From positions 1-20,262 of IMG/VR virus record IMGVR_UViG_3300043602_000060: a stretch of 20,262 nt of DNA. One strand, written 5' to 3'. Below the pieces are notes generated by a model that worked only from the letters and a program-made list of their open reading frames with translations, searched no databases and was not told where the DNA came from. The DNA comes from a virus. Below, one piece after another: positions 1,703-17,991 of the stretch (the first letter of the stretch is position 1; every line of letters begins with the position of its first letter). Both the position numbers and the translations under genes were made by a program.

Positions 1703-2160
1703 TAATTCACCTCGAACGTGATCACGCCTTCAACGGCGCGCAGATCGGTGAACGCTGCACCGTCCAGCCGGGTAATCGTGATGGTGGACGCCCCAGCCGT
1801 CACCCGCGCCTTGCCGACCGCGAACGTCCCGTTGTCATCGACCATCACGAGATTCGTCATGCTCCGAGCGGCCGTGAGGTCCGCAGGAATCGCGACGGTG
1901 ACCGATGCGCCTGCGCCGGCGGTCGTCACGAGCACCAGCGCAACATCGAGCCGCTTCCCCATCAGGCAGTAGGCGAAGGTCGTCTGGTCGCCAGCCTGCA
2001 CCGTCCACGAGAAGTTCCCAGCCAGATACTCAACGGCTTTCCAGATGCCGTAGCCGCCTTTGAGGTAATCGAAGAAGGCGATGCGCCACGCACGCAAGAG
2101 CTTCCCTTTTTGATCCACCATCGGTTCGCGATCGAGAACCGCCAGCGTCTTGGCGTTCAC
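1702..2160 (-). CDS. Small virion-associated protein of unknown function, in the position of the P22 tail needle
   Basis: This 152-residue protein starts at a GTG overlapping the upstream TGA (GTGA), indicating translational coupling; Met14 is a possible later start. The N-terminus (REPMVDQKGKLLRAWRIAFFDYL) resembles a short lead-in seen at the start of many phage tail/virion proteins, where a 'valid/previous-part then W..FFDxL' pattern precedes a structural domain. Residues 60-152 are rich in Val, Thr and Ala and predicted to form beta strands. The gene follows the gp10-like gene, where P22 has the tail needle gp26, but there is no long trimeric coiled coil, so it is not called a needle. Family resemblance is from memory of typical sequences and is weak. 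Confidence 0.65.
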   Translation of the reverse strand: MNAKTLAVLDREPMVDQKGKLLRAWRIAFFDYLKGGYGIWKAVEYLAGNFSWTVQAGDQTTFAYCLMGKRLDVALVLVTTAGAGASVTVAIPADLTAARSMTNLVMVDDNGTFAVGKARVTAGASTITITRLDGAAFTDLRAVEGVITFEVN

Positions 2161-3599
2161 GCCGCACGGCCCATCACGAGATCGGCGCCAGAAAGCGCCC
2201 GCACGACGGACGACGTAATCACGAGCCGGTACACTCGCCCCTTGTGGCCGCTCTTCCCGAGCCGGCGCAGCTGCGCGACGTTGTCGAAGTCACCCTGCGC
2301 GCCCAGCGTGATCTCGAGCGGCGTGCTCCACGTCTTGCCGTCATCGTCGGACCAATCGACCGACCCGACGGGAGCGGGGACTGTCGCCGTACCGACGCCC
2401 ATCTGAAAATCGAACGTCAGCGTGTGATGCGTCCGGTTCTTCCCGACCGGCGGCGCGGCTCGGACGATGCGAATCACATCGCCGTCGTCGTCCAGATAGC
2501 TTTCGGAGAAGTCGTAGACCAGCCCGTCGCTGTGCGACCCGAGCAACTGGCGGCCGAACGCGGCGATGCACCCGAGCCCAAGGAACGCTTCCGACTGACC
2601 GAGCCCGGTATCCCAATGATCCCAATTCGTCCACAAGTCGGTCAGCTCGTCGTACACCCACGTGACGCCAGGCGACACGAACTGCAGGACGAAGAAGCTG
2701 TGCCCGCGCCACTCGATCGCGTACGCCTGCGCGTTGGCGATCTGCGTCTCGGTATAGCTCTTGAGCGCGGCGTCAACCGCGTGCGTACTGATTCGCTGCG
2801 GTCCGTACGACTGAAAACGCTCCACCACACGCGAGCCGCCCGACTGTGACAGGCTGTAGACGGTCCCCCGCAACAGGCACGAGCCAAAGGTCGCCGGTGA
2901 CCCGGACGGAATCACGACGTCCACGGGTTCCGCTGGGAAGCCGGGCGCGGCGGTGTAGCGCCACACTTCCGACCGCTGAACGCCACGCAGCCAGAGCTCC
3001 CCCACGTCTTCATCGACGAGCAGGCTGTTGATGTAGTCGCCCGTGTTCGACTTCTCGCCAATGTCCACCGTCGCGTACGAGGTTCCGACGTACAGGTCGG
3101 ACAAATGGAACGTGACCCCGTTGCGCGTCAACCAGACGAAGTGCCCTTTCCAGAACACGACCTGAATCACGTTCGCCGGGAACTGCGGGTCGGCAATCGC
3201 CGTGAGCGTGTTCGCGCCCAGGTTAAAGATGAATCCCACGCCAGCGGAGGCAATCGCGATCTCCCCGACCTGTGGCCCGTTGTAGGCCAATGAGGCCGGC
3301 TTGCCGTCGTCGACCAACTGCCCGGCTGTCCCACGGAGCGTGACCGTCCAGTTGCTATTCAGTTCGTAGAGATCCGGCCCTGAGACGATGAAGAAGCGGC
3401 CGTTCGCTTCGATGAAGCCGCGCCACGGACCCACACCGGCGGTGAACTTCTGCAACAACCCTGGCCGCGCAACGTACCCAAGGTCGGTCTTCGACTGGCC
3501 GCCGCTCGTCAGTTCGGGAATCCAGTTTCGGCACTCTTCGGAGCCGATCACCGACTGCGGATGCTTAAAGGCCGGCCCTACAAATCCAAAGGGCGGCAT
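2157..3599 (-). CDS. P22 gp10-like packaged-DNA stabilisation (tail hub/connector) protein
   Basis: The 480-residue product matches the length of P22 gp10 (about 472) and its character: an N-terminal MPPFGFVGPAFKH segment, an RNWIPE motif typical of these proteins, then long beta-rich repeats with propeller-like LYEL, VFWKGHFVWL and VYDELTDLWTNW stretches. In P22, gp10 binds below gp4 on the connector and helps keep packaged DNA in the head and attach the tail. The gene starts with a TGATG junction (ATG sharing its A with the stop of the gp4-like gene) and ends in a GTGA overlap with the next gene. The order gp4-like then gp10-like is exactly that of P22. No signal peptide. Confidence 0.82.
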   Translation of the reverse strand: MPPFGFVGPAFKHPQSVIGSEECRNWIPELTSGGQSKTDLGYVARPGLLQKFTAGVGPWRGFIEANGRFFIVSGPDLYELNSNWTVTLRGTAGQLVDDGKPASLAYNGPQVGEIAIASAGVGFIFNLGANTLTAIADPQFPANVIQVVFWKGHFVWLTRNGVTFHLSDLYVGTSYATVDIGEKSNTGDYINSLLVDEDVGELWLRGVQRSEVWRYTAAPGFPAEPVDVVIPSGSPATFGSCLLRGTVYSLSQSGGSRVVERFQSYGPQRISTHAVDAALKSYTETQIANAQAYAIEWRGHSFFVLQFVSPGVTWVYDELTDLWTNWDHWDTGLGQSEAFLGLGCIAAFGRQLLGSHSDGLVYDFSESYLDDDGDVIRIVRAAPPVGKNRTHHTLTFDFQMGVGTATVPAPVGSVDWSDDDGKTWSTPLEITLGAQGDFDNVAQLRRLGKSGHKGRVYRLVITSSVVRALSGADLVMGRAA

Positions 3600-4336
3600 C
3601 AGCGCACCATCCCGGTGTCAATATCGAACGTGCCACCACCAACGAGCATCGGGGAGTTAGAGCGCTTCGTGTCGCGCGGCGTCGCGTTCTTGAAGGTGCG
3701 CTTCAGATGCGCCGCACGATTCACCAACCGTGGCGACACGACGGCGGCCGGATACTGGTCGGCGAGGTCGAGCGCGAGGTTCTTCCGCAACGTCAGCGCG
3801 AGGCCGGACGGCATCACAACATCGTCCGCCAGCGTGAACGTTGAAATCTGCCCACCGAGCGTGTAGAGCACGAGCTGTGTCGTCCCGACGTTCGGAATCG
3901 GCAGCGGGTAGATCGTCCCGTAGCCAGACGCGTCGTTGCCGCGGCTGTACCAGGCGGCGGCCGACAGCGACGCTTGCTGAGTCTTATCCGGCCACTGCGC
4001 ATACTCGAGATCCGTCAAGAGCGGCAACGGCACTTGCTGCGGCGGCGAGGCGGCGGTGTCGAGAATCAGTCCGGCCGCGAAGATGGACGCCGGCCGCGGA
4101 ATGTTGATGCTCGCGCCTGACCCGACGGTGTAACTGGCCGTGCCGTTCGCCAGCGTCTTCGCGGTTCGGACGAGCGTGTAGAGCATCCCCGGCTCGATCC
4201 CGAGCGCATCCGCCAGCAGATTCAGCGCAACCAAACCATCCTCAGATTCACTCGGCTTCGGGCTCTGGCCGTCGGCCAGGACGCCGATGTCGAGCATCGC
4301 GCCGCGGATCAAGGCATCGGCCGTGGTGGTAATCAT
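3599..4336 (-). CDS. P22 gp4-like head-to-tail connector (tail accessory factor)
   Basis: The 245-residue protein begins MITTTADALIRGAMLDIGVLADG, a pattern characteristic of the P22 gp4-type connector: a helical start, then GVLA(D/E)G, a second helix with LNLLADALG, then ASYTVGSGA and NIPRPASI beta segments, later an IYPLPIPN strand and an LADQYPAAVV helix near the C-terminus. These proteins form the dodecameric ring under the portal. It is longer than P22 gp4 (166 residues), but such longer homologues are common. The ATG overlaps the stop of the secreted-protein gene before it (ATGA), and the stop overlaps the gp10-like start, so the three are translationally linked. Confidence 0.8.
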   Translation of the reverse strand: MITTTADALIRGAMLDIGVLADGQSPKPSESEDGLVALNLLADALGIEPGMLYTLVRTAKTLANGTASYTVGSGASINIPRPASIFAAGLILDTAASPPQQVPLPLLTDLEYAQWPDKTQQASLSAAAWYSRGNDASGYGTIYPLPIPNVGTTQLVLYTLGGQISTFTLADDVVMPSGLALTLRKNLALDLADQYPAAVVSPRLVNRAAHLKRTFKNATPRDTKRSNSPMLVGGGTFDIDTGMVR

Positions 4337-5244
4337 GGCTTCTTCACCACCGCCGTGCAGCCGCGGTCATCCATCACCGTCAGGACGTGCTTACCGTCCG
4401 CGCGCCACTCGAGTGTTTCCTTGAGCCACTTTCGAGTACCAACCCCGAACGTCACGGTACGCGTCCCGGTGTTCGACGTGGGCCACTTCACGCCGCTGAC
4501 GACGAGCGGGCTGCTCACACAGACGTCCACCGGCGGCACAGGGGCAGGCGTCGGCGTGGGAACTGGCGCCGCCGCGCACGCGGGAACCGAGGCGCCAACG
4601 GACTTCCACTTCGTAACCTCGTCCCACTTGCGCCAGCTGGCAAACCTCGCGTCGTACACGTGCGTCACGCCGCCAGGGAACACGTACTTCGTGCCAGCCG
4701 CGCCAGGCAGCGCCGCACCGCCAGGCATGGAATACGCGCCGTCGCGAAGCGTCCACCCAGAGGACAGCGCCCAGACGTGCCCGAGCGCGTCCGTCCCGCC
4801 TGAGACCTCGGTGCACGCACTCGCAGGCGTCGGTGGTGCCGGAGCGGGCGCGGGAACTGGTGTCGGAGCAGGAGCTGGCGCCGGCAGTGCACCAGCCTGC
4901 ACCGTCAGGACCGGCGTGCGCGACGATTCCACACCGTTGACGTAGACAGCCGCTTGCAACGCATGAGCGCCAGCCGTGAGCGTCACGTTGACCGTCCCGT
5001 CAAAGAGGGACAAGCCCGCCGCGTTCGGCCCCCGTGCGAGCGCCAGGGCTTCCCTCGGCCTGGCTGTGCCGTCCACGATCAGTACGCCGTCGGTTGGTGA
5101 GCCCTCCGCGCAGATCTGCATCCGGTAGGCCACGCCCGGTGTCACCGTCTGCATCGTCAGCCATGACGTGTCGCAGGGATGACTTTGCGCGACAGCAGAT
5201 GACACCAGCGACAGGCAGAAGACCGCGATCAGGGCGACTCTCAT
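4333..5244 (-). CDS. Secreted multidomain protein with Sec signal peptide and Pro-rich linkers
   Basis: I choose ATG at 5244 (MRVALIAVF) rather than the GTG three codons earlier, because it begins a clean signal peptide: positive residue, hydrophobic core, then SSAVA-Q. The mature protein has a beta-sandwich-like domain (about residues 20-115), a linker of alternating Pro and Ala (about 117-138), a second domain with several Trp residues (SSGWTLRDGAY, SWRKWDEVTKW), another Pro/Thr linker, and a C-terminal domain ending VVKKP. It has six cysteines in the mature part. The frame is 303 residues. No enzyme motif is recognised; a cell-surface or extracellular adhesive/binding role is only a guess. 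Its end overlaps the gp4-like start, so it is co-translated with a connector gene. Confidence 0.72.
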   Translation of the reverse strand: MRVALIAVFCLSLVSSAVAQSHPCDTSWLTMQTVTPGVAYRMQICAEGSPTDGVLIVDGTARPREALALARGPNAAGLSLFDGTVNVTLTAGAHALQAAVYVNGVESSRTPVLTVQAGALPAPAPAPTPVPAPAPAPPTPASACTEVSGGTDALGHVWALSSGWTLRDGAYSMPGGAALPGAAGTKYVFPGGVTHVYDARFASWRKWDEVTKWKSVGASVPACAAAPVPTPTPAPVPPVDVCVSSPLVVSGVKWPTSNTGTRTVTFGVGTRKWLKETLEWRADGKHVLTVMDDRGCTAVVKKP

Positions 5245-5288
5245 GCTGCACACCGTTGCAGAGCGGTTTGGAGGTAGAATCCGGCGCT

Positions 5289-5435
5289 ATGACTAAGCCT
5301 GTGAGAGTGCTGATTATCGGAGCCCTGATTCTGTTTGGGGCCGCCGTGGCAGCGAGATCCATTCCCTATGATCGGTGTGTCTACATGGCCACTGATTACA
5401 GCTCTGAGCCACAGCCGTTTTGCGGCGGACGCTAA
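5289..5435 (+). CDS. Possible 48-residue membrane/secreted peptide on the opposite strand
   Basis: In the 196-bp gap between two minus-strand genes, a plus-strand frame starts at ATG 5289. It encodes a basic N-terminus (MTKPVR), a hydrophobic segment (residues 6-22) and a short polar tail with two cysteines, ending QPFCGGR. A GGAGGT sequence lies upstream, though about 13 bases away, longer than ideal. TAGAAT just before the start could be a -10 box with no convincing -35. No better minus-strand candidate fills the gap. It could be a signal-peptide or single-pass membrane peptide similar in style to the adjacent secreted proteins. Coding status is uncertain, since short frames of this length arise by chance. 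Confidence 0.4.
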   Translation: MTKPVRVLIIGALILFGAAVAARSIPYDRCVYMATDYSSEPQPFCGGR

Positions 5436-5440
5436 GGCGC

Positions 5441-6142
5441 TCAACACCCAACTCCAAGTAAGCTGAACGTCTTCGGGCACGTCGCGCCACCGCCCCCACC
5501 GAGATCGCCACCGTCGAACTCGTCGATAAATGAGCTTGGTCCCACAAACGTGAACACCACGAATCCCACCGCGCCGCTGGTGATGGGAGAGGAGGAATCG
5601 GCATAAGCCGACCCAGCCGCTGAGCCGTTTTTCAACGCTTGGATGGAGGACGTGGCTCCACCCGTGCATTCAATGCGAATGACATCGAGTTCAGCCGCCG
5701 TGACTCCGGTATCATCTACCTTTGTTGGCGTGCCAGCGACGTATTTGTAGATGACGATCTCTCTCGCGGGGGTCTCATTGGAATCCACGTAGGCCACATA
5801 CATCGTCTGCGCCCCGGACGCGATGCGACACGCAGGCCCAGCGATGATGCTTCCCCCGCCAACACCATCGGCATAGACCTTCACCTGGGCGTATTGATCG
5901 TCAGTGACCATGTTCGCTGACCAATACGCGCCGCTGACGGTGTTCGTGGGGTTCCCCTGCACGATACCGCTCGTTCGATCCGGTGTGCCGAGTCCCGTGA
6001 TCGCCGTCCAGTTGCCACTCAAGGCGCCAGTCCCGGCGAAGGCATCGGTGTAACTGGCCGCGTGCAGCACCACCGACAGGGGCGCCAGGCTCAGCCCGAG
6101 AACAACCGCGACGATCAGGAGATGGCGAAGCGCACGCGGCAT
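5441..6142 (-). CDS. Secreted concanavalin A/LamG-like lectin-fold protein
   Basis: The 233-residue product has an N-terminal signal sequence (residues 1-29, hydrophobic core LLIVAVVLGLSLAPLSVVL, cleavage near HAA). The body looks like a LamG/concanavalin A-type jelly roll: a D-x-F-x-G start with LSGNWT, then a QYAQVKVY strand, GPACRIASG, VIYKYVAG, IRIECTGG and a final ITSGAVGFVVF strand. Such folds often bind glycans. A Gly-rich linker (GGDLGGGGG) and a short Cys-containing tail CPKTFSLLGVGC end the protein. It has four cysteines. The ATG follows the upstream TAA with no gap (TAAATG), with GGGGA as a possible ribosome binding site inside the upstream gene. Ligand and location are unknown. 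Confidence 0.72.
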   Translation of the reverse strand: MPRALRHLLIVAVVLGLSLAPLSVVLHAASYTDAFAGTGALSGNWTAITGLGTPDRTSGIVQGNPTNTVSGAYWSANMVTDDQYAQVKVYADGVGGGSIIAGPACRIASGAQTMYVAYVDSNETPAREIVIYKYVAGTPTKVDDTGVTAAELDVIRIECTGGATSSIQALKNGSAAGSAYADSSSPITSGAVGFVVFTFVGPSSFIDEFDGGDLGGGGGATCPKTFSLLGVGC

Positions 6143-7948
6143 TTAGGGCGTCCCCATCTGAAAGCAGTGAATCCGCGTCGGGAGCGGCGTGCCGTACCAC
6201 AAACTCGGTGAGGGCATCAGGACGGCGAGGGTGTTATTCGGCCCACACGCCGAATGCCGATACATGAACGTCGCGCCAGCAGGACCATGCAGCGCGGATG
6301 CGGACACCAATCGAACCGTCATGTTCGTGTCGGTGAGGCCATCAAATTCCGGCGCAATGTCGCCGCAGCTCTGGCCCGAGCACGCATCAAACACGGTGGA
6401 GCTGATGTTCTCGTGAATCGTGAATCCCGAGCGCAAGTCGGCGGTGGACCCTCCGTAGGTGATGACTTGATTCAGAAGGCCGTTTGCCTCCGTGAATATT
6501 GGGGGCGTGGGAAACGTGAACCGAAACCGATCGGAGGTCGCGTTAATCGCGATCGTGACCCCGGTGTATTCGTAGACCTTAAACGGCACTTCGTTGTAGT
6601 CCAGTCCGCCATACTGAATCTCTACGTTGCTGTCGTACTCGATTTCCGTCGAAGGGTTGCGAGTGCCAGCGTAGGTCTCCGCATACTTCAGGGGATCAAG
6701 GCAGGCAAAGGAATGCCGACTCTTATCCTGCTGAACCGCCGCAGCGATGTATGCCCCCGCCGTGCTGTAGGTGATGAGATGTAGGATGCAGTGCTGCGCG
6801 CCCGTATCGACCCACACCGCCGCGTTGATCTGATTCGTCAGCAGACCGTCATGTAGGGTCCACCCCCCGGCGCCACCGATGCCAGCCCCGCAATCTTTAT
6901 CGGACGTGTGATTCGCAACGAGGTCGCCGATGAACGCGGGTTGTGGAAGCCTGTGGGTGGTGTCGGGACAGCCAGGGACAACATTGACCGCCACGGGCTT
7001 AAAATTTGCCGAAATGTTCTCAATCTCTGTTCCGTTTGGTTGCCCGGTCGGAAGATTCAGGACAATAGCCGTGGGATCGGTGCTGAATCCATGGAGGCTG
7101 TGGTTGCCACCGCCATAGAGCATGTGCCGCTTGCCCTCAAAGTGGGCGTCAGCAAACCACGTCGGGACTTGGAGAATGGGGCCGTCGCTCTGCTTGTGGC
7201 CGCGATCCTCGAACGCATACGCGGCCTGCGCCGTGCAACTCGATGACCCGCGCGTGCAGTAGGCAAGAACGGGCTTGCCGCCCGAATCGTCGGAATACGT
7301 CCCCACGCTCCACGTAAACCACACATTGGAGCCAACAGCGAGCATCCCGTTCGGCCCGGCACAACATCCACCGTTCAGCAGATCGCCGTTGAGATCAACC
7401 CTGAGCGCCCCAAGGGGATACCCGTAATACTCTTCCAGCGTGGCAGTCGGGTAGTGGCCCGCTGTCGGCGATGACGCGAAATCATCACAGCGGAACTTGT
7501 AGAGGAATCCTGATTGCCCGGCCGTACTGGAGTTCTGCGCCGTCGCGATGAAGTGCCCAACGCCGTCTTCGACGATATGCCCGAAGCCAGCCACGTTCGT
7601 ATAGCCGCCGGTCATGCCGTGGCTCGTGTAAGTCAGTCCGGCAGAGAACGGCTGCAAATCAAGTGGGAGCTCGCAACTCCCGAGATAGGTGATGTCGGTA
7701 TTGACATCGATCAGCGTGCGGGCGCCGGCGCCTGGCTCCTCTTCGTCGCCACCACCACCGCCAGGAGGTGCTGCGGTCCGACCGCGAAGACGGAGCCTGC
7801 CCTGTCCAGCCTCGAAGACGCGGCTTTGCTTCAACGTGCGCTGGATCTTGTCTCCAGCACGAAGGTGCTCAAGTGCTTGCGCGCCAACAGGCGCCGCACT
7901 TAACAGGAGCGCGCATGCGACGGCGAGAATAGATAGCAAGCGTTTCAT
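6143..7948 (-). CDS. Large secreted Cys-rich protein, possibly beta-propeller-like
   Basis: At 601 residues this is the largest protein of the secreted block. It has a classical signal peptide (MKRLLSILAVACALLLSAAPVGA, Gln at +1). A basic segment (residues 27-60) and a linker with five Gly and an acidic run (about 64-80) precede a long beta-rich region. Repeating segments such as GMLAVGSNVWFTW, HMLYGGGNHSLHG and AAVWVDTGAQHC suggest a propeller-like fold, but I cannot assign a family or active site. The mature part has fourteen cysteines, fitting an oxidising compartment. The start lies nine bases after the previous stop and no good Shine-Dalgarno is visible. It could be a surface-binding or glycan-processing protein; function unproven. 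Confidence 0.72.
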   Translation of the reverse strand: MKRLLSILAVACALLLSAAPVGAQALEHLRAGDKIQRTLKQSRVFEAGQGRLRLRGRTAAPPGGGGGDEEEPGAGARTLIDVNTDITYLGSCELPLDLQPFSAGLTYTSHGMTGGYTNVAGFGHIVEDGVGHFIATAQNSSTAGQSGFLYKFRCDDFASSPTAGHYPTATLEEYYGYPLGALRVDLNGDLLNGGCCAGPNGMLAVGSNVWFTWSVGTYSDDSGGKPVLAYCTRGSSSCTAQAAYAFEDRGHKQSDGPILQVPTWFADAHFEGKRHMLYGGGNHSLHGFSTDPTAIVLNLPTGQPNGTEIENISANFKPVAVNVVPGCPDTTHRLPQPAFIGDLVANHTSDKDCGAGIGGAGGWTLHDGLLTNQINAAVWVDTGAQHCILHLITYSTAGAYIAAAVQQDKSRHSFACLDPLKYAETYAGTRNPSTEIEYDSNVEIQYGGLDYNEVPFKVYEYTGVTIAINATSDRFRFTFPTPPIFTEANGLLNQVITYGGSTADLRSGFTIHENISSTVFDACSGQSCGDIAPEFDGLTDTNMTVRLVSASALHGPAGATFMYRHSACGPNNTLAVLMPSPSLWYGTPLPTRIHCFQMGTP

Positions 7949-7957
7949 GGGTTCTGA

Positions 7958-9457
7958 TTACCGATAGGTGTACGTCGCTTTAATTTCATTCGCGGCGACT
8001 TCGGCGACATCGCTGTCCGCAGCGCCAGTCGTGAAGGAACACGTCAGCGCCACGCTGAAGGTCAGGCCGGCTGGAAACTCCACGGCAAAGCCGGCTCCAG
8101 TCGTCGCCCCTGGAATCGCCGCTCCCCACAGCACGGTTGATGTGCCTGGCGTCGTGTTCGCCGCCGTCAGGTTGTAGCAACGGATGTAGCGCGCGGCGGC
8201 ATTGGTGTTCGTGATCAGGACCGAATACAGCACGCCAGGCGTCGCTTTGATTTCGTGCTCGTCTTCAGTCGATCCCGCCGATGTGCGGTAGTGAACGGAC
8301 GCTCCGCCAGGGGCGGTGTAGATGCCGCCCTCGAGCGTCATGCACAAGTAGACGCGGTCGCCGTTGGCGCTGACAGCCGTACACGGCACACTGCTCGCGT
8401 AGCCGCCGATCGGCACCGGATTACAGGCGGACGCAGCGTCGTGCGCGACGTCCGAACAGGTATCAGTCCCGGCCATTTTCACGACGTCAACCTGCACCGG
8501 TGTCATCGACGCCCGGCCCTGCACGGTGATGACATCAGCCGATGACGTGCCGGCGGTTCCGAGCGCCGGTTGCTTCGCGGCCGTCGCCGCACCGGTCGGA
8601 AGCGGCAACGCTGCGGCCGACATCGGCAGCGCCGTGCCAGAGGCGATGCCCTGGACGCTGATCACGTCCGTTGACGATGATCCAGCCGTGCCAAGCGCGG
8701 GCTGTTTCGCGGAGGTCGACGCACCAGACGGCAGCGGCAGTGCAGCGGCCGTGATGGCCGTCCCTGAATCAATCCCTGCCAGGGCGGCTTCGACGCCATC
8801 AAGGTAGGTTTTAACGAGATCGAGATCGGCGAGCACCGCAAGCTGCGTGGTTTCCGTCGTGTCGCTCGTGCCAGCGCCACCCCCACCGCCGCCTCCACCG
8901 CCGCCGCCACCGGTCGCGGCTGCCGAGATGTAGACAATCGCCTGGCCTGACGAGTACGACGTCATGCAGGCGCGCACGGACGTCAGGGAGGCCACGTCCA
9001 TCACCCAGAGGCCCGCGGCCGTGGTCGAGTTGACCGCCGTCCCAGGTGCTTCAGGCGTCGCGGCGTCGATCGCGACGAAGCTCGAGCCGCCCGCAGACAC
9101 CGTCCATGTGATCGTCCCGCTGAACGTCGGGTTGCCGACGACGCCGACGCTCGCGCGGCCCATACCGGTGACGTCGAGCGAGGCGCATTGATTCGCGGCG
9201 CCGAGCAGCTGGCCGCTGGGGCCGTTATTGCGCGGGGCGATCTGCGCGAAGGACGGCGCCGCGTACAGCAGCAGGATCGCCGTCAGGATCGAGGCGATGC
9301 GTCCGCGCTTCGGCCGCTTCTCTTCGACGGGTTCAGGTGCCGCAACTGTTTTCTTCGGGCTGTCGAACCAACCCTCACCGAGCGCGCGATCCTCGTCTTC
9401 GGTTTCGACGCGGCGCGGATCTTCTGTGGCGTGATAGCGCCAAGCCGGATAACCCAT
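7958..9457 (-). CDS. Virion-type protein with internal signal/transmembrane segment, poly-Gly linker and LPLPTG repeats
   Basis: A 499-residue protein whose start is set by AGGAG eight bases before the ATG. Residues 1-35 (GYPAWRYH, DEDRALGEGWFDSP) resemble a small N-terminal module I recall from many phage structural proteins. A charged stretch and then a signal-like segment follow at residues 51-72 (RGR, hydrophobic core ILTAILLLYAAPSFA, Gln next), so the export signal is internal. Residues 73-180 are beta-rich, residues 183-194 are twelve consecutive Gly, residues 237-317 hold two 37-residue repeats containing LPLPTG, and the C-terminal domain (about 330-499) is beta-rich. There are eight cysteines. 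It may be a type II membrane-anchored or a cleaved virion-surface protein. Confidence 0.75.
   Translation of the reverse strand: MGYPAWRYHATEDPRRVETEDEDRALGEGWFDSPKKTVAAPEPVEEKRPKRGRIASILTAILLLYAAPSFAQIAPRNNGPSGQLLGAANQCASLDVTGMGRASVGVVGNPTFSGTITWTVSAGGSSFVAIDAATPEAPGTAVNSTTAAGLWVMDVASLTSVRACMTSYSSGQAIVYISAAATGGGGGGGGGGGGAGTSDTTETTQLAVLADLDLVKTYLDGVEAALAGIDSGTAITAAALPLPSGASTSAKQPALGTAGSSSTDVISVQGIASGTALPMSAAALPLPTGAATAAKQPALGTAGTSSADVITVQGRASMTPVQVDVVKMAGTDTCSDVAHDAASACNPVPIGGYASSVPCTAVSANGDRVYLCMTLEGGIYTAPGGASVHYRTSAGSTEDEHEIKATPGVLYSVLITNTNAAARYIRCYNLTAANTTPGTSTVLWGAAIPGATTGAGFAVEFPAGLTFSVALTCSFTTGAADSDVAEVAANEIKATYTYR
8507..8749 (-). repeat. Two in-frame repeats encoding LPLPTG-type modules
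   Basis: Residues 237-273 and 281-317 of the enclosing protein are two copies of a 37-residue unit (30 of 37 identical), spaced 44 residues apart. Each contains LPLP[S/T]GA, AKQPALGTAG and DVI[S/T]VQG. The second copy is followed by a partly similar segment. LPLPTG-x-AT-x-AKQ is a module I recall as recurrent in phage virion proteins, so this is probably structural repetition and not a sign of recombination. Confidence 0.8.
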
Positions 9458-9474
9458 GTGTCAAGCTCCTGAAA

Positions 9475-9506
9475 TCCGGAGGCGGGCCGTTATTCCCGCC
9501 CCCGGA
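9475..9506 (-). other. Intergenic hairpin before the 9457 start
   Basis: On the minus-strand transcript, 12 consecutive pairs (one G-U) form a GC-rich stem with an 8-base loop. It lies in the 62-base gap after the 9520-10347 gene and is followed by TTTCAGGAG, which contains the next ribosome binding site. There is no real U-run, so it is a weak terminator at best; an RNA-processing or mRNA-stabilising stem is equally possible. Confidence 0.45.
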
Positions 9507-9519
9507 GGCATGAAAGGGA

Positions 9520-10347
9520 TTACCGCGGCGCGAGGGTGAACGTGATCGTGACGCCGGCGAGCTCGCCAGCGGTGTCATCAGTGAAGTCGACGCCGAGTCG
9601 TTCCCCTGCCGACAGCAACAGGAACGAGGACGTCGCAGAGAGCGTCGCGCTGGTCACGGTTTCCGCCGCGATGCCGGACGTGACCGCATTCCAGGCCGTC
9701 GCCAGGAGGTCACCGGACGCAGCCGCTTCCGTGCTCTGCTCGCGCATGATGCGCACGGTCAACGTGCCGGCCGACTCTGCGACCTTCGACACGTAGGTGG
9801 CCCCGACGAGTACCAGCGGCCGATCGACCGTGTAGCACGACTGATCGACCATGTCGGCAATGAGCAGCATCCGACACGTCTGCGTGAACGTCTGATCGAG
9901 CCGATACCAGACCCCCGCCGGCGAGCACTGCGAAATGAAGCCGCTCGTCAGCGAGATATGCGGTAGGTAGGCTTCCGCCGTGGATGTGCACACCCCAGCC
10001 ACGTCGGACTGATAGAACCGTCCGCGCGCGCCGGTGTAGACGGTCGACCCGCTGGCATGGGCGGACGTGTCGACGAGGCCCGGCAGCGGCATCGCCCGGC
10101 GTGCGACCTGCACGTAGGGACTATTGACCGCCGTGACCCGCATGACTTCGCGGGCGACGTTGCCGGTCACCACGACCATGCGATCGCCAACCGAGATGTT
10201 GGAGGTCGAGGCCAGTTGAATCTGACTCGCCGTGGCCGTCACGGCCGCCGCGAGCGTGGTGGAGTTGAGCGTGGTCTGAGCAAATGCGGGAACGGCGAGC
10301 GCTACAAGCAGGCCCACCGTCACCATCAGGGTCTTCAGCGTCTTCAT
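9520..10347 (-). CDS. Secreted-type virion protein with signal peptide, directly after the coat gene
   Basis: The 275-residue protein starts at an ATG with AGGAG seven bases upstream. Residues 1-23 are a textbook signal peptide (MKTLKTLMV, hydrophobic core, PAFA) with Gln at +1. Residues 24-105 form a module with TTLAAAVTATASQIQL, NISVGDRMVVV, EVMRVTAV and SAHASGSTVYTG. I recall this beta-rich pattern as frequent in phage virion and decoration proteins, where repeats of similar type occur without a signal peptide. The second half is beta-rich, with SATLSATSSFLLLSAGERLGVDFT near the end. There are four cysteines in the mature part. The position immediately after the coat gene suggests a head decoration role, which conflicts with export; the conflict is unresolved. 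Confidence 0.78.
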   Translation of the reverse strand: MKTLKTLMVTVGLLVALAVPAFAQTTLNSTTLAAAVTATASQIQLASTSNISVGDRMVVVTGNVAREVMRVTAVNSPYVQVARRAMPLPGLVDTSAHASGSTVYTGARGRFYQSDVAGVCTSTAEAYLPHISLTSGFISQCSPAGVWYRLDQTFTQTCRMLLIADMVDQSCYTVDRPLVLVGATYVSKVAESAGTLTVRIMREQSTEAAASGDLLATAWNAVTSGIAAETVTSATLSATSSFLLLSAGERLGVDFTDDTAGELAGVTITFTLAPR

Positions 10348-10414: not shown

Positions 10415-11647
10415 CTAGCTGCCCGACTGGACGCGCAGCGTCCACTCGTCGCGGAGCATCGCCACGGCCGGCCAGATGTCGAAGCGGATCTTCCACATCG
10501 AGCTCTCGATGTCCCATGCGCGGGTGTAGCGCATCGACAGGCCGAGTCGTTCATCGGACTTCGTCGCCCCCTTGGCGCCCTGGCCTTCGGGGTTGCCGAG
10601 TTCCTTGAACGCGAGCGCGATAGCCGCCTTGTGCCACATGAGGCCCTGGCGCGCGGTCTTGCTCAGATAGCTCGAGATGTGCCCGAACAGCTGAATCGCG
10701 CCGTCGTCGTCCGGGGCGGCCGAAACATTGCGCTTCGGTCCGGTGAGGACGATGGCCGGGCTGATGGTGATGGTTGCTTCGCCCGATCCGTCCGAGGCGT
10801 AATCCGCCACGACGCGGAACGTCTTCAGGCGGCCCGTGCTCTCCTTGGTGACCGGATTCACCGCGTAGCAGCCGGGGAACGCCACGATGTCGTTCTGCTT
10901 GAAGATCGCGCTGGACGCCGTCCAGTCGTCGGTGATGATCGCGGAACCGACCTGATTCGCGCCCTTGACCAAACCCGCACCGGTGACCGCGCCGGTCACG
11001 TGGGTTTTGGTCTGCTGGGTGCGCGCCCAATCGAGCCCGCCGGCGCGCTTCATGCGGCCGTCCTTGTACTGCTTGCCGAGACTGCCCACGTCGGCGTACA
11101 GGCCCTTCAGGAAGTCAACCGCGTCAACGTCCATCTGCGGACTGATGGCGCACAGGATGCCGCCGTTGTCATCGGGGCAGCAGTAGTCGGACAGGATCGC
11201 CTGGCCGCTGAGATACGTGCTGAGCGCGCTGGGATTCGTGCCCGGCGTGCCGACGAAATTGGGCGACTTCATGAGCTCGGTGATGACCATCGAATCGACG
11301 GCCGTCGCGAGGCGGGACATGAGCGGCTTCAGGATCTGTTCCGAGGACGAGGACAGGTCCATCAGCATTTCTTCTTCCGTCAGCTTGACGTCGACGCCGA
11401 TCGGATCGGCAAACGTCAGGTTGACGTAGTCCTCATCGAGATCCTGCCAGTCGGCTTGCCAGCCGGTGCGGACGTCGAAGAAGTTGGGCTTGCGGATGCG
11501 GATGCTGTTGCCGCGATTCGATCCGCCGTTGGGGCCGAAGTGCTTATCGAACTTTCGCGTGGTGTGCTGCGTCGCCACCAGCGCGTTTTCGAAGATGTCC
11601 ATCGACTCGAGCGTGACGATGTCATCGGTCAGTAAGTTGTGGGCCAT
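10415..11647 (-). CDS. P22-like major coat protein
   Basis: A 410-residue protein, close to P22 gp5 (430), located directly after a scaffold-like gene and before the connector genes. Recognisable points are the N-terminal MAHNLLTDDIVTLESMDIFENALV, a central ADPIGVDVKLTEEE, a WARTQQTKTHVTG segment corresponding in position to the FDD..RSPKLPVLTKS part of P22 coat, then beta-rich KQNDIVAFPG, TFRVVADY and ATITISPAI strands of an inserted domain, and a C-terminal SMRYTRAWDIESSMWKIRFDIWPAV. It forms the icosahedral shell with the scaffold as assembly partner. The start codon lies 16 bases after the scaffold stop, with GGAG very close upstream. The family is assigned by length, order and motif pattern. 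Confidence 0.85.
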   Translation of the reverse strand: MAHNLLTDDIVTLESMDIFENALVATQHTTRKFDKHFGPNGGSNRGNSIRIRKPNFFDVRTGWQADWQDLDEDYVNLTFADPIGVDVKLTEEEMLMDLSSSSEQILKPLMSRLATAVDSMVITELMKSPNFVGTPGTNPSALSTYLSGQAILSDYCCPDDNGGILCAISPQMDVDAVDFLKGLYADVGSLGKQYKDGRMKRAGGLDWARTQQTKTHVTGAVTGAGLVKGANQVGSAIITDDWTASSAIFKQNDIVAFPGCYAVNPVTKESTGRLKTFRVVADYASDGSGEATITISPAIVLTGPKRNVSAAPDDDGAIQLFGHISSYLSKTARQGLMWHKAAIALAFKELGNPEGQGAKGATKSDERLGLSMRYTRAWDIESSMWKIRFDIWPAVAMLRDEWTLRVQSGS

Positions 11648-17428: not shown

Positions 17429-17695
17429 TCCAAGCCTAACGAGATACCGGGTCGCTTCGGCGCGCTCGACGAATGCCCACAACCTGACGCCGCAGCGTTG
17501 CCACGTCAGTTTGACCTCTCCGCGCTTGGCGTCGTCGATGACCTTGTCCTTTGAGAAGCCTGCCCATGCGGCAACGAAACTGACGCGGACCGGTGGGCCT
17601 TCGATATCCAGAATCGAACGCGGCGGCACGAACAGTCTCCGGCTTCGCTGTTCCTCGCGTGCGGAGTCGGCTAGAAGGGCTTGAGGATCTGTCAT
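17417..17695 (-). CDS. Small excisionase/MerR-type winged-helix DNA-binding protein
   Basis: ATG 17695 is chosen because it overlaps the stop of the upstream gene (ATGA); an upstream Met exists eight codons earlier but would overlap more. The 92-residue product has a helix-turn-helix-like centre, VSFVAAWAGFSKDKVIDDAKRGE, followed by a wing (VKLTWQRCGVRLWAFVER) and helix AEATRYL, resembling excisionase/MerR-like folds. It sits directly before the repeats, the parS-like palindrome and terS, so it may bind them or regulate late genes, which is inference. The protein ends CST at a TAG codon within the palindrome. Confidence 0.65.
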   Translation of the reverse strand: MTDPQALLADSAREEQRSRRLFVPPRSILDIEGPPVRVSFVAAWAGFSKDKVIDDAKRGEVKLTWQRCGVRLWAFVERAEATRYLVRLGCST

Positions 17696-17991
17696 TTCGG
17701 CGCGTCCTCGTCGTAGCACTTGCCGTCAGCGCGGGCTGGCCACCACGTTGAACCTTTAAAACCAGGGGACCAGCACGCCGCCATGCTTCGCTTCTCAGGT
17801 AGCCATCGAGCGAAGGCCTGGCCACTGGCGTCGTAATACACGCCGTGGCGAGGCGCCTGCGGATTCTCCTGCTGCTGCGCGGTGTCCTTCCAGAGTGCAG
17901 CGATTTCCTGCCACCGGTGAACCTGAATCTGCGCGCTGACCGCCCAGGAAAACAGGACGATGAACATCGCCAGCACGAGGAACCGTTGCAT
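17692..17991 (-). CDS. Small secreted protein with Sec signal peptide
   Basis: A 99-residue protein starting MQRFLVLAMFIVLFSWAVSA with Gln at +1, so a short classical signal peptide. The mature part contains Trp-rich pieces (HRWQEIAALWKD, GSTWWPARADGK) and two cysteines (AACWSP, GKCYDE). GGGAG lies eight bases upstream. No family is recognised. Its export signal resembles those in the 4.3-10.3-kb block although it is far away, next to the terminase region. It overlaps the following HTH gene by four bases, indicating co-translation. Confidence 0.65.
   Translation of the reverse strand: MQRFLVLAMFIVLFSWAVSAQIQVHRWQEIAALWKDTAQQQENPQAPRHGVYYDASGQAFARWLPEKRSMAACWSPGFKGSTWWPARADGKCYDEDAPK

Follow-up and report, generated by a model that had tools for sequence, protein, structure and literature searches.

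Five consecutive genes, here called A to E, lie between the P22-type coat gene and the gp4 and gp10 genes of an uncultured short-tailed phage known from an IMG/VR record, and all five carry a Sec-type signal peptide (SP), internal in one. Together with related genes in other contigs, this suggests that in this phage and several relatives some virion parts may be produced away from the cytoplasm and added at a late stage. The window, that is, the whole 20,262-base record, reads on its minus strand as a P22-type late operon in the order terS, terL, portal, two small ORFs, scaffold, coat, A–E, gp4-like and gp10 (Table 1). The homologues of coat, portal, gp4 and gp10 follow one another as in P22-like head-tail operons, and 3' of gp10 stands a fibre-like ORF, followed by a gene resembling those of ejection proteins (phrog_598, 4e-6) and one final ORF. 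The coordinates, strand and gene order that the original prediction gave for the five-gene insert in this operon were correct.

Table 1. Features of the window. A slash marks the predicted signal peptidase cut; bare numbers in the last column are SP scores.
Feature	Position	Strand	Description	Score or match
gp10-like gene	2157..3599	-	head closure / tail hub protein	phrog_578 'head closure Hc3' 8e-68
gp4-like gene	3599..4336	-	tail adaptor	phrog_12985 5e-15; matched in 77 relatives
Gene E	4333..5253	-	306 aa; SP MRVALIAVFCLSLVSSAVA/Q; Pro-rich linkers; 6 mature cysteines	
Gene D	5441..6142	-	233 aa; SP ...VVLHA/ASY; Gly-rich linker; C-terminal tail PKTFSLLGVGC	
Gene C	6143..7948	-	601 aa; orphan; SP MKRLLSILAVACALLLSAAPVGA/Q; 14 mature cysteines	
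Gene B	7958..9457	-	499 aa; small head-operon domain fused to an SP protein that has fibre-type repeats and a C-terminal domain	
Internal SP of B	9245..9310	-	residues ~50-71; KRGRIASILTAILLLYAAPSFA/Q	4.92
N-terminal part of B	9311..9457	-	~49 aa; counterpart of the 60-90 aa coat-gp4 ORF of relatives	
Gene A	9520..10347	-	275 aa; SP, small beta-rich tail-fibre-type domain, exchangeable C-terminal domain	
SP of A	10279..10347	-	MKTLKTLMVTVGLLVALAVPAFA/Q	5.52
Coat gene	10415..11647	-	P22-type; directly upstream of A-E	PF11651 E=3.8e-33; phrog_283 7e-61
99-aa ORF	17692..17991	-	SP MQRFLVLAMFIVLFSWAVSA/Q; upstream of terS	5.22

Relatives were gathered with alignments of gp10, terL and A. The gp10 search yielded 80 loci, to which eight named phages were added, the terL alignment gave relatives at 45–63% terL identity, and the search by A added more. 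The gap between coat and gp4 in these relatives mostly holds one to three small ORFs without SP (about 60 relatives), and a gp4 gene directly after coat, as the original prediction stated for P22, is not the rule. The last small ORF of the gap is usually 60–90 aa long with a basic tail, and some relatives have tail-fibre-type genes there. Single-protein searches with A–E in named phages and with coat and C in viral contigs returned no relatives, and a terL search of genome contigs gave only three distant matches, with no host among them. In a promoter scan of the block region, neither strand showed a sigma-70-like site, the number of terminator-like sites there was near expectation (7 found, shuffle mean 5.7), and there was no Rfam match anywhere in the window.

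Signal peptides were evaluated with a home-made n-h-c score (positive n-region, hydrophobic core, AxA site), which has no formal error rate. Genes A, C, D and E scored 5.37–5.53 at the N-terminus, each combining an N-terminal n-h-c architecture with an AxA-type site as recognised by Sec and signal peptidase I, and the internal segment of B scored 4.92; the other head-tail operon genes in the window were near zero, none exceeding 0.1. By this score, the Sec-type signals originally predicted for all five genes, internal in one, thus hold up. A score of 4.5 was reached by 12 of 1287 ORFs of the relatives (~1%) and by shuffled N-termini in 1–7% of trials, shuffling being a weak control as composition itself carries signal. 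With background and shuffles so low, N-terminal signal peptides on four of five genes are not explained by chance. Lipoprotein signals, cut by signal peptidase II and found on many exclusion proteins, were considered and rejected: there is no lipobox, and the +1 residue is Q in A, B, C and E and A in D. The start of E is more likely the ATG at 5244 than the GTG at 5253. The 99-aa ORF is the only other SP gene of annotated size in the window; it has no family match and is possibly unrelated to the block. A separate 48-aa ORF on the plus strand (5289–5435), in the gap between D and E, has an SP-like start, MTKPVRVLIIGALILFGAAVA/ARS, with a score of 5.89 and two cysteines in its short mature part.

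SP-bearing relatives of A stand directly 3' of the coat gene in eight other uncultured contigs (L170, L091, L171, L172, L173, L101, L097/L098, which represent one virus, and L096), at 24–60% identity, L170 reaching 60% over the alignment. The comparison with related phages that had been proposed as a check thus finds SP genes after coat recurring, in L091 as a run of three. Across the nine A sequences, the A/Q at the cleavage site and the cysteine pair C120/C141 are invariant, and C158/C171 are common to the six closest. The six closest homologues have a mean identity of 35% in the SP and 51% in the mature part, the SP being lower in 14 of 15 pairs, as expected for a real signal peptide. A-like genes without SP occupy the same slot directly after coat in L012, L013 and L090, so the SP was added to a gene of the virion operon. 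The L012 protein starts MAQTTTTISAAVTASDQ and mature A starts QTTLNSTTLAAAVTATASQ, so that the SP was placed exactly before the native start. The two forms are mixed within the lineage: L090, the closest by terL (63%), has an A-like gene without SP, and L231 has an SP on its tailspike and none on its A-like gene.

Among the A relatives, at least two unrelated types of C-terminal domain follow one N-terminal domain, a modular pattern typical of fibres. The AF2 model of A, built from the nine sequences, has a mean pLDDT of 77, with residues 30–160 mostly at 80–96. Its Foldseek matches among viral models were mostly uncharacterised phage proteins and tail fibres, and those in PDB were weak, among them the AP22 tailspike, aligned over 100 columns (TMq 0.23). 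The A-family profile matched 8vjh 'Minor tail protein' at E=9e-7, as well as a tip-attachment-protein-J-domain protein, and the A homologue of L101 matched phrog_9851 tail fiber (1.4e-7); the A of the window, searched by itself against tail proteins, gave only 0.045. Such matches support a virion-adhesin origin of A, which is not proof of its presence on the particle. Structure prediction, likewise proposed as a check, failed for C, whose AF2 model, made without relatives, has a pLDDT of 32. In L170, the ORF at the terL position (2246–3841) has no match to the terL of the window despite 44% identity in portal and 42% in coat, hinting that its terminase was swapped.

Gene B is most simply read as an in-frame fusion of the usual small head-operon ORF to an SP protein. 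Its N-terminal part corresponds to the small ORF of the relatives in position and pattern, residues 1–49 have a weak match to the small ORF of PAE2 (33% over 36 aa, E=0.008), and there is no ATG, GTG or TTG between residues 36 and 58. The basic tail of the fused ORF doubles as the n-region of the signal peptide. The B homologues of L091 (28%, E=7e-9) and L170 have no fused domain and start directly with the SP.

The evidence on head docking rests on the relatives, as no head-binding domain was found in the window and the record ends before any tailspike gene. The record of L173, G004, is 41.3 kb long with a coat gene that spans the record ends, and is apparently circular and complete. Besides A, it encodes four SP proteins after the ejection genes (spike-like, B-like, D-like and pectate-lyase/NosD-like). 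Directly behind its SP, the spike-like protein has a domain matching 7eeq 'Tailspike head-binding domain' of cyanophage Pam1 (E=2.4e-15), which in PBR31, Pam1, DSL-LC05 and MW202483 stands at the very N-terminus with no SP. A profile search of all loci found about 48 P22-like relatives in which this domain lacks an SP, and three contigs of the lineage of the window, L173, L184 (record of L172) and L181 (record of L096), in which it lies behind one and A has an SP too; this search found no second head-binding-domain protein in G004, only the SP-bearing one. With a further viral scan added, the domain was directly behind an SP in 10 of 117 distinct sequences and without one in 107. The ten SP forms scored 4.54–6.01, three of the SP-less ones 4.0–4.5 and the remainder lower. 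The loci L265, L288 and L244 comprise 17–20 ORFs, of which none but the tailspike encodes an SP protein with a high score.

Detectable homologues among A–E were confined to A and B. No recognisable virion domain was found in C, D or E, and C had no homologues in profile, family and sequence searches. The D-like SP protein of G004 (L177 4715–5479) ends similarly to D, with GGGG..APRLGLLGVGGA. In both proteins a run of glycines precedes a short tail with the letters LLGVG, and this ending could serve the exported proteins as a C-terminal tag.

The mature block proteins are rich in cysteines, with 36 in 1747 residues in comparison with 12 in 2852 in the other virion-operon proteins of the window (p=2e-7), and the counts in A to E (4, 8, 14, 4 and 6) are all even. 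Among the 117 tailspike sequences, CxxC is found at the start of the head-binding domain in 4 of the 10 with SP and in none of the 107 without (Fisher p=3e-5, uncorrected for relatedness). Signal peptides are thus linked with paired cysteines, as would be expected if the proteins fold in the periplasm.

The best reading is that A is a short fibre, B is fibre-like and C–E are uncharacterised exported proteins. Export of the block proteins is well supported by their sequences; actual export and cleavage, the disulfides and, above all, docking to the virion are what we infer from them. We give about even chances that the block encodes virion-type adhesins that are exported by Sec, fold in the oxidising periplasm and dock at lysis. 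The block proteins would be made together with the late head-tail genes and sent through the host Sec translocon, with signal peptidase cutting after the A-x-A/Q motif's alanine. They would then fold in the oxidising periplasm, where paired cysteines could form disulfides. Assembly of DNA-filled heads with gp4 and gp10 would take its usual course in the cytoplasm. Once lysis opens the inner membrane, these adhesins would probably meet the heads and dock. This last step is suggested by the retention of the head-docking domain and by the binding of P22-type accessory proteins to finished particles. P22 tail parts, as reportedly found by Israel et al. in 1967, join finished heads in vitro. Dec binds P22 capsids in vitro (PMC6449081). 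The general form of the proposal, that some P22-type lineages finish their virions outside the cytoplasm, with tailspikes and fibres exported by Sec, disulfide-bonded in the periplasm and docked at lysis, we hold more tentatively, at slightly less than an even chance.

The main rival, less likely in our judgement, is that the exported proteins never join the virion and act in the periplasm, on the infected-cell surface or in the surroundings, for example by blocking or destroying receptors against superinfection, by degrading capsule and so freeing progeny, or as soluble depolymerases; their virion-type domains would then be inherited from tailspikes and fibres. Clean signal peptides and cysteine pairs fit such a role, as do the missing virion domains of C–E, the G004 SP protein resembling secreted pectate lyase/NosD, which has an fn3 domain and no head-binding domain, and the proposal of a role in superinfection exclusion for an SP protein that Thermobifida phage P1312 secretes (PMC4569894). 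On the other hand, the head-binding domain has been kept behind the SP and has gained CxxC in several cases, no second, SP-less tailspike was found in G004, and A always directly follows coat in this lineage. Of the secreted or surface-anchored programme considered in the original prediction, the export half is supported, as the signal peptides look truly cleavable; the purely secreted form is not the simplest reading, given the virion fibre domains of A and B and the tailspike head-docking domain behind the SP in relatives. Some block proteins may act as free agents and others in the virion.

We consider it improbable that the hydrophobic N-termini are uncut virion parts, serving as membrane-active or oligomerisation helices rather than as export signals, although virion proteins are normally assembled in the cytoplasm, the hydrophobic segment of B is internal, and the post-coat proteins of the more distant L105, L112 and L114 have N-terminal hydrophobic segments. 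The n-h-c architecture, the invariant A/Q with a diverged core, the SP-linked cysteine pairs and the start of homologous domains at the cleavage point all argue for cleaved signals, and it is accordingly unlikely that signal-like helices do something else. Misassigned starts, a mis-assembled contig or host genes are very improbable: the window is a single metagenomic contig and GC3 is lower in C and D (0.70) than in coat, portal, gp4 and gp10 (0.83–0.88), but independent contigs show the same arrangement again, with their sequences conserved, and a Shine–Dalgarno-like AGGAG precedes the starts of A and B.

To our knowledge, the accepted view is that the cytoplasm is where tailed phages carry out all of their assembly and where tailspikes and fibres fold, and we know of no description of a split, two-compartment assembly pathway for them. 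No precedent for signal peptides on tailed-phage virion proteins was found in open-access full text, which is weak evidence of novelty. The window shares with the P22-like podovirus operon (coat, small ORFs, gp4, gp10) its gene order and the coat (PF11651), portal, gp4 and gp10 genes, and differs from it in having 6 kb of SP genes in the coat–gp4 gap and the small ORF fused into B. The head-binding domain of the relatives is 39–48% identical to that of cultured phages (Pam1 7eeq, Xanthomonas phage PBR31, Phage DSL-LC05); the cultured tailspikes checked have no SP, whereas in the relatives the domain lies behind a Sec SP, sometimes with a new CxxC. Gene A is similar to Dec of phage L and head-fibre decoration proteins in its position after coat, but no homology to phage L Dec was shown, A has an SP, and its N-terminal domain is of the kind seen in tail-fibre and minor tail proteins, to which A is closer than to proteins that decorate capsids. 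Thermobifida phage P1312 ORF22 likewise has an N-terminal SP on a large phage protein, which has a phosphatase and a carbohydrate-binding domain in place of domains for virion docking or of fibre type (PMC4569894).

If late docking of exported adhesins is true, receptor-binding virion parts can be made in another compartment, with consequences for the way in which tailspikes come by disulfides, the moment at which virions turn infectious and the possible display of phage adhesins on infected cells ahead of lysis. It would also matter when receptor-binding proteins are predicted in metagenomes, as annotators who see an SP may assign such a protein to the host.

Two further observations concern other contigs. 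Shortly after the SP-bearing A, L096 (9600–10676) and L101 (17966–18979) encode multi-pass membrane proteins that are homologous to each other (30% identity, E=6e-20). These may be membrane sugar transferases that could act on the exported proteins, but family and structure searches gave no match in support. SP-like starts were also seen on fibre- or spike-like proteins of other uncultured phage contigs, L204 (6795–8282), L215 (5697–8291), L202 (2638–3732) and L191 (7674–8282), the L204 protein matching virion structural and tail spike PHROGs (4.5e-32), suggesting that signal peptides on such proteins reach beyond P22-type phages.
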